Positions 12,495-13,094 of a stretch of DNA of 44,091 bases are shown one piece after another. Positions within the stretch are counted from its first letter, which is position 1; every line of letters begins with the position of its first letter. The notes under the pieces are model-generated. The model did no database searches, was not told where the DNA came from, and saw only the letters and a program-made list of their open reading frames with translations. The position numbers and the translations under genes were made by a program. Origin of the DNA: Fibrobacter sp. (GTDB lineage: Bacteria > Fibrobacterota > Chitinivibrionia > Chitinivibrionales > Chitinispirillaceae); contig JAAYEB010000069.1 of the NCBI GenBank assembly GCA_012728995.1, positions 1-44,091 of the forward strand. The letters run 5' to 3'.

Positions 12495-12521
12495 TAAAGA
12501 ATTTTTTAATAATACCGATAA
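12495..12521 (+). promoter_or_regulatory. Sigma-28 (FliA)-type promoter for flgM
   Basis: TAAAGAAT at 12495-12502, exactly 11 bases, then ACCGATAA at 12514-12521. The flagellar sigma-28 consensus is TAAAGTTT-N11-GCCGATAA, so the match is 6/8 in the -35 and 7/8 in the -10 with the exact consensus spacing. Transcription would start near 12528, giving a ~86-nt leader before the flgM ATG. FlgM genes are classically sigma-28 dependent (class 3), which supports both calls. Confidence 0.7.
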
Positions 12522-12546
12522 ATATAACAAGAATACGGGGAAATAA

Positions 12547-12579
12547 TTCCAGGGAAGGAAATCTCTTCCAGGGATGGAA
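12547..12579 (+). promoter_or_regulatory. Tandem CsrA/RsmE-like hairpins in the flgM leader
   Basis: Two nearly identical 14-mers, TTCCAGGGAAGGAA (12547-12560) and TTCCAGGGATGGAA (12566-12579), lie 19 bases apart. Each folds into a small hairpin with TTCC/GGAA arms and GGGA in the loop; the second has a fifth A-U pair. Both contain the CANGGANG core recognised by CsrA/RsmE. They would lie inside the transcribed leader of flgM, 35-67 nt ahead of the start codon. CsrA binding is inferred from the motif; no csrA gene is in the window. Confidence 0.5.
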
Positions 12580-12613
12580 GGACCCCCTCCTTAAAAAGAA
12601 AGGCAGGTAAGCC

Positions 12614-12913
12614 ATGGATATCAAAGGATTATCAGGTGCTTACGGGGCCGAACCTTATAAACCATCTGTTGTTAACAACAAAAAGGCAGCTCCGGAAAAA
12701 TCGGTGGTTAATCAAAGAGAACAACTTGAACTCTCCAGTACCTCTCAATCTCTTCAGAAAGTACGGGAGACTCTTAATGAATTACCGGAAATCAGGATTC
12801 CTAAAGTCGAAGAGATAAAAACCAAAATCAGATACAACGGCTATCCGTTGGAATCCAATATCTACAAAGCACTAAAAAAACTGGTTGAGAATGAAATTCT
12901 AAACCAGTTTTAA
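12614..12913 (+). CDS. flgM: FlgM-like anti-sigma-28 factor
   Basis: FlgM binds and inhibits the flagellar sigma factor sigma-28 until it is exported through the completed hook-basal body. This 99-residue protein has the family pattern. A disordered polar N terminus begins MDIKGLSG, followed by a QLELSSTSQSLQKVRETL segment matching the conserved 'kvelSs.a..l..a...l' core. PEIRIPKVEEIKTKI then precedes a final helix ending near the C terminus, the sigma-binding part. The ATG at 12614 follows AAGGCAGGTAA. The sigma-28-like promoter upstream independently fits this identity. No other flagellar gene is in the window. Sequence similarity is moderate, so the name rests on both lines. Confidence 0.8.
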   Translation: MDIKGLSGAYGAEPYKPSVVNNKKAAPEKSVVNQREQLELSSTSQSLQKVRETLNELPEIRIPKVEEIKTKIRYNGYPLESNIYKALKKLVENEILNQF

Positions 12914-13009: not shown

Positions 13010-13094
13010 GCCCGGGTGGCGGAATAGGTAGACGCTACGGACTTAAAATCCGTTGTCCTTTTTGGACGTGCCAGTTCGATTCTGGCCTCGGGCA
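13010..13094 (+). tRNA. tRNA-Leu (anticodon UAA)
   Basis: This is an 85-nt class II tRNA. The acceptor stem GCCCGGG/CTCGGGC has one G-U pair. The anticodon stem ACGGA/TCCGT has loop CTTAAAA, giving anticodon TAA. The long variable arm GTCC-TTTTT-GGAC is typical of leucine tRNAs. The T stem GCCAG/CTGGC encloses TTCGATT, and the discriminator is A. The 3' CCA is not encoded. It reads UUA/UUG codons. Confidence 0.96.

Follow-up and report, generated by a model that had tools for sequence, protein, structure and literature searches.

The leader of flgM in the 44,091-nucleotide stretch of Fibrobacter sp. DNA analysed here (the window) carries two tandem CsrA/RsmE-type hairpins, H1 and H2, which probably form a conserved CsrA-binding element that couples the FliW-CsrA-flagellin switch to FlgM/sigma-28. 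Judged from the sequence features described below, the element is very likely bound by CsrA, and FlgM would likely be regulated post-transcriptionally through it. A sequence-only reading of this DNA had proposed the two hairpins, a sigma-28-like promoter before them and the identity of the downstream gene, and all three held up, the hairpin pair being well above chance: both 14-mers are exact and offset by 19 nt, their tandem is unique in the 4.97 Mb genome, the promoter matches TAAAG-N15-CCGATA (12495-12520) with zero mismatches, and the open reading frame is a flgM by its protein family (Table 1). Beyond that reading, we detected a helix (P1) enclosing both hairpins, a third hairpin in longer leaders and, in the window's family, a stem (P3) over the Shine-Dalgarno (SD) region.

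Table 1. Features of the flgM locus in the window (positions of the whole stretch).
Feature	Position	Strand	Sequence and basis
Sigma-28 promoter	12495..12521	+	TAAAG 12495-12499, N15, CCGATAA 12515-12521; zero-mismatch match; same promoter 5' of relatives' flgM
Outer helix P1, 5' arm GGGG (probable)	12537..12540	+	G-run/C-run flanking the hairpin pair in aligned leaders
Hairpin H1	12547..12560	+	TTCCAGGGAAGGAA; TTCC-AGGGAA-GGAA; GGA 12553-12555; CC-ANGGAN-GG in 24/24 aligned elements
Hairpin H2	12565..12580	+	CTTCC-AGGGAT-GGAAG; 14-mer TTCCAGGGATGGAA 12566-12579; GGA 12572-12574
Outer helix P1, 3' arm CCCCC (four used; probable)	12583..12587	+	Would pair with 12537..12540
Shine-Dalgarno region AAGGCAGG	12600..12607	+	Without GGA; kept as GAAAGGCAGGTA in most family members
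Leader strand of proposed SD-masking stem P3, GGC-AG-GTAAGC	12602..12612	+	Minimum-energy folds of many family leaders, including the window's
flgM, anti-sigma-28 factor, type A paralogue	12614..12913	+	PF04316, 34.5 bits (cut-off 25)
Coding strand of proposed P3, GCTTAC-GGG-GCC (Ala-Tyr-Gly-Ala codons)	12638..12649	+	Invariant synonymous codons

The two GGA loops are 19 nt apart, the same as the offset of the 14-mers. The core CCANGGANGG occurs three times in the window against 0.69 expected; two of these copies are the H1/H2 pair and the third lies antisense within a trehalose-synthase-like open reading frame. In the whole draft genome, the tandem CCANGGANGG-N3-20-CCANGGANGG occurs only at the flgM leader (reversed-pattern control: 0), and neither the tandem pattern nor a covariance-model search of the whole genome found a second copy of the element. 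Both hallmarks of a sigma-28 regulon, the promoter and the sigma-28 gene fliA, are present. A tRNA-Leu is encoded just 3' of flgM (window 13010-13094) and an equally distant tRNA is found at L029 (genome G016), so that the flgM-tRNA neighbourhood seems conserved.

Folded alone, the window's leader RNA has ordinary stability (z = 0.02). Its lowest-energy fold is other than the two hairpins, the 3' arm of H1 can pair with the 5' arm of H2, and forcing H1 and H2 together costs 3.2 kcal/mol. The case for the element is therefore conservation, not single-sequence folding.

A protein search recovered FlgM relatives in 22 of the 61 related genomes. Leaders were read locus by locus, each in its own orientation. 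Counting that of the window, an assembled leader was available for 21 type-A flgM genes (the G036 leader is cut by a contig end and was left out), and the hairpin pair is present in all 21. Relatives from the window's family are labelled Chitinispirillaceae, Chitinispirillum or Fibrobacter sp. and the farther ones Chitinivibrionales or Fibrobacterota; at L051 and L052, which belong to other, more distant families, the element also lies directly 5' of FlgM genes. The covariance model R1 gave matches in 25 of the 61 genomes at E ≤ 0.01, with one copy per genome, while a cut-off of E ≤ 0.001 applied to 168 genomes of the phylum also gave 25; one weak match was set aside per count (L053, which folds unlike the others, and L199), leaving 24. 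These 24 genomes of the phylum carry one copy each, located directly upstream of flgM in 23.

The GGA loops, whose conservation upstream of flgM in relatives the sequence-only reading had named as a check, are fixed: CC-A-N-GGA-N-GG is invariant in 24/24 elements. The other stem pairs and the linkers vary, the linker between the hairpins (12- and 14-mers) ranging from 5 to 15 nt. In the alignment of the 24 sequences, standard pairs occupy 90.8% of cells against 84.8% in shuffled and 42-63% in slid controls, two-sided stem changes are found in 20 cells against 7.5 in shuffles, and none of 500 shuffles reached the observed covariation score; these figures lean in favour of the structure, because related sequences were aligned by fitting them to the model. 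H2 is paired in 97.5% of cells, with both-sided changes at three of its five pairs, and RNAalifold run on this model alignment (A3) keeps both H1 and H2.

A strict version of the tandem pattern, scanned across about 85,000 species, returned 17 loci, 13 of which are flgM leaders of this phylum. The four outside the phylum group are L194, L195, L185 and L198. The first (L194:1020-1055) is a gammaproteobacterial intergenic RNA with many GGA motifs that looks like a CsrB/RsmZ-type sRNA, the second appears from its sequence to be the leader of a malic-enzyme-like gene, and in the third the pattern lies within a repeated unit. The fourth, from the Myxococcales (L198:7725-7757), has a GCCGAT box followed by tandem GGA hairpins and an open reading frame of at least 79 aa, hairpin 2 overlapping the likely SD. 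We considered it as a second flgM case and rejected it, as its reading frame is not FlgM; the true flgM of that genome is encoded elsewhere and has no such hairpins in the stretch read.

Most element-bearing genomes encode a second flgM, of type B (flgM-B; G000:C344:4461-4652, L072/L180, with relatives at L024-L027). The flgM-B leaders read in relatives lack CsrA-type hairpins, despite sigma-28 promoters close to the start codon. Two anti-sigma-28 factors, A and B, thus coexist in these genomes. Non-flagellated Fibrobacter-like genomes without flgM also lack csrA, fliW and the element. Several genomes (e.g. G003, G004, G026 and G029) have csrA and neither type-A flgM nor the element, which means that the Csr system can do without this wiring. 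One element copy, at L050:1501-1553 on the minus strand (G034:C13:20982-21034), follows a CCGATTAA box and a tRNA. Downstream of this copy there is no flgM, and a hairpin and a T-run come further along. The copy may possibly represent a stand-alone CsrA-binding sRNA.

The hairpin pair is flanked by a G-run and a C-run. In a hand-set register covering 23 leaders, including L051 and L052, three pairs of the P1 core are always G-C and the fourth, innermost pair is G-C in 11, A-U in 7, U-A in 2, C-G in 2 and unpaired in 1 (22/23 paired; shuffled mean 12.2). L052 has an 8-bp version (AAAGGGUU/AACCCUUU). P1 is present in most minimum-energy folds of the leaders and absent from the RNAalifold consensus of the 24-element model alignment, and an automatic permutation test was marginal (p = 0.048; p = 0.075 with longer flanks). 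Thermodynamic tests with shuffled flanks were discarded as uninformative, because G-runs and C-runs pair anyway. P1 likely, if not provenly, encloses both hairpins. Between the promoter and P1, an additional GGA-loop hairpin was identified in 13 of the 17 leaders that are long enough (shuffled mean 1.2, maximum 5); the short leader of the window has no such third hairpin and two sites in total.

Within the window's family, the codons for an Ala-Tyr-Gly-Ala run close to the N-terminus of FlgM are fixed (GCT 12/12, TAC 12/12, GGG 12/12, GCC 10/11), with mostly mixed codons at other conserved residues (e.g. Ala 3/3/3/3 at alignment column 90). In many family folds, GCUUAC-GGG-GCC pairs with the SD region GGC-AG-GUAAGC, and the resulting predicted stem, P3, likely masks the SD in this family. 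As P3 is partly broken in L013 and L017, the fixed codons may possibly serve another nucleotide-level role.

The trans-acting partners are encoded in the same genomes. The window's genome has csrA, which the proposal presupposes, within a fliC-fliW-csrA cluster, and its product retains RNA-binding residues. Both R6 and R44 of E. coli CsrA have retained equivalents in this protein, which matches RsmE (2jpp, an RNA complex) as well as a Geobacillus-type CsrA (5dmb, the Geobacillus FliW complex), the latter match reaching the C-terminal extension. Both csrA and fliW were each detected in 34 of the 61 genomes, and together in 23 of the 24 element-bearing ones. Neither was detected in the remaining genome, G043, an 850-contig draft in which the loss of a single contig would account for both absences, csrA and fliW being adjacent. 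In the window's genome, the flagellin leaders have an upstream GGA hairpin (e.g. CCGGC-AAGGAT-GCCGG) and a GGA-containing SD (CAAGGAGG), which is the hag/glgC design. Flagellin leaders with GGA hairpins and GGA-containing SDs were also found phylum-wide (L142, L028 upstream of 4572 on the minus strand, and L144-L181). The leader of the fliC-fliW-csrA cluster contains several GGA motifs, which suggests that the cluster may be autoregulated.

H1 and H2 each have an ANGGAN apical loop on a C-G-closed stem, and their 19-nt spacing falls within the 10-63 nt that a CsrA dimer bridges, with an optimum above 18 nt (PMC7652899). In the proposed mechanism, one CsrA dimer would bridge these two hexaloops in the sigma-28-driven leader. 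As expected from the fliC-fliW-csrA cluster, CsrA would itself be under a FliW-flagellin partner switch, so that excess cytoplasmic flagellin would free CsrA from FliW and the free CsrA would repress flagellin mRNA. Given this expected control, the element most likely ties FlgM output to free CsrA, that is, to flagellin build-up, and would couple the flagellin checkpoint to the FlgM-sigma-28 checkpoint. By a further inferred step, free CsrA would raise FlgM and flagellin transcription would be lowered as well.

The position of the hairpins bears on how the element would act. They end 29-67 nt before the start codon in the 21 leaders, clear of the SD, and imposing both of them changes predicted SD accessibility by a mean of +0.005 (up in 4 and down in 2 of the 21). 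We therefore dropped a CsrA-driven SD switch, at which a truncated fold with a CCCUCC arm masking the SD had hinted, and SD blocking is not the obvious mode. The sequence-only reading had implied dual control, transcriptional and translational; CsrA-type sites behind a sigma-28 promoter in a genome with csrA, fliW and fliA, conserved in relatives, are well supported. That their control is translational is a weaker proposal, as the hairpins avoid the SD and leave its predicted accessibility unchanged. Stabilisation of the mRNA or titration of CsrA would fit at least as well. Our tentative preference, held at somewhat less than even confidence, is that CsrA raises or preserves FlgM output by protecting the mRNA, by analogy with flhDC. 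As to the 5' end, near which sites that shield an mRNA from RNase would be expected, P1 begins 16 nt downstream of the -10 CGAT in the window and 32-64 nt downstream of it in most relatives. The positive sign is favoured because the sites avoid the SD and because only an increase in FlgM would parallel the repression of flagellin translation by CsrA.

The opposite sign, which the sequence-only reading implied, is rather unlikely. Free CsrA would then repress flgM translation, lower FlgM and release sigma-28. Repression is the commonest mode of CsrA (PMC7652899), the flagellin leaders of the same genomes have the classical design of a hairpin and a GGA within the SD, and in the L022/L023 family the flgM SD (CAGGGAGG) includes a third GGA, so that direct SD occlusion could occur in that family. 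Against this, the SD lacks GGA in most of the window's family, including the window itself (AAGGCAGG), the hairpins are distant from the start codon with predicted SD accessibility unaltered, and lowering FlgM while repressing flagellin would be contradictory feedback.

Equally unlikely, or slightly more so, is that the flgM leader acts mainly as a CsrA sponge, drawing CsrA off the flagellin leaders, with only a small effect on flgM itself, and thereby letting active sigma-28 lift the repression of flagellin. The third GGA-loop hairpin of the longer leaders and the G034 copy without flgM behind its CCGATTAA box would suit such a role, and titration of CsrA has precedents in the Salmonella fimA leader and in the C. 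jejuni flaA leader, whose two GGA hexaloops are separated by 21 nt (PMC4894983). A sponge needs abundance, however, and in 23 of 24 genomes it is flgM that carries the element, not the flagellin mRNAs, whose abundance is presumably much greater; the window's leader has only two sites. As the leader of a coding gene with two to three sites and no Rfam match at gathering score, it also differs from CsrB/RsmZ-type sponges.

Hairpins that bind a factor other than CsrA, or act as RNA structure alone, for example as a 5' stabiliser, are improbable. Stems alone could protect the 5' end, and some P1 arms are found 15-18 nt beyond the -10 box. Loop letters that stay invariant while stems change with compensation are the opposite of what a purely structural element would show, and the pattern matches outside the phylum include CsrA-type contexts. 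Very improbable is a chance or DNA-level repeat, in which TTCCAGGGANGGAA would have no function in RNA and would be a duplication or a palindromic operator. Both copies are imperfect DNA palindromes, which a transcription factor might recognise as a pair, but the pair always lies 3' of the -10 box on the coding strand, in one copy per genome, with a fixed, asymmetric loop and stems preserved by compensatory changes as the linker varies.

Among the closest known systems is the C. jejuni flaA leader (PMC4894983), in which neighbouring CANGGANG-like hexaloops each present a GGA motif, 21 nt apart compared with 19 nt here, on a flagellar mRNA that can titrate CsrA and with FliW as the CsrA antagonist. 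There the target is flagellin, whereas here it is an anti-sigma factor; the element also has a helix that probably encloses it and, in the window, an SD without GGA. Like the E. coli flhDC leader, where CsrA activates by mRNA protection (PMC7652899), the element places a pair of CsrA-type sites upstream of the coding region in a flagellar-regulator mRNA; the gene, promoter and lineage differ, and protection of flgM mRNA would be an extension by analogy. With the B. subtilis hag leader and its Hag-FliW-CsrA switch (PMC6529632, PMC7652899), the window's genome shares adjacent fliW and csrA and flagellin leaders with an upstream GGA hairpin and a GGA-containing SD, but hag in B. subtilis is controlled by CsrA and FlgM in parallel, while here CsrA-type sites are on flgM itself. 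RsmE/RsmA targets and the RsmY, RsmZ and CsrB RNAs (Rfam CL00106) also present several ANGGAN hexaloops on short stems per RNA; unlike those RNAs, the element is the cis leader of a coding gene, its best Rfam score being 10.1 bits to RsmY against a gathering score of 57, and no Rfam family matches it at gathering score.

The sequence-only reading knew of no description of this arrangement in such a lineage. Open-licence papers that we searched report no flgM leader with a CsrA element, and those returned for Fibrobacteres and CsrA were, by title and abstract, on other subjects. The claim is narrowed by C. jejuni, where CsrA gel-shifts flgM mRNA, with 5-fold enrichment in the open reading frame and none listed for the 5'UTR (PMC4894983). 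Both E. coli and C. jejuni are known to have small RNAs that affect the translation of flgM. What we describe would then be the standard design of CsrA-type sites placed on a target that is new and conserved, the flgM leader, and probably enclosed by a helix.

FlgM export, which acts on sigma-28, and FliW-CsrA, which acts on flagellin level, are the two classical flagellar checkpoints, and in B. subtilis they are described as reaching hag in parallel (PMC6529632). Being compact and conserved and having a natural control in the flgM-B leader, the element is testable with purified CsrA and a reporter. We consider the chances about even that flagellated Fibrobacterota use a conserved platform of two to three hairpins, dedicated to this role in the flgM leader, by which the FliW-CsrA-flagellin switch directly governs the FlgM-sigma-28 checkpoint, with P3 as a second layer in the window's family. 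If so, a CsrA element on flgM would join both checkpoints into one circuit, and one flagellin signal would set flagellin translation together with late-gene transcription.
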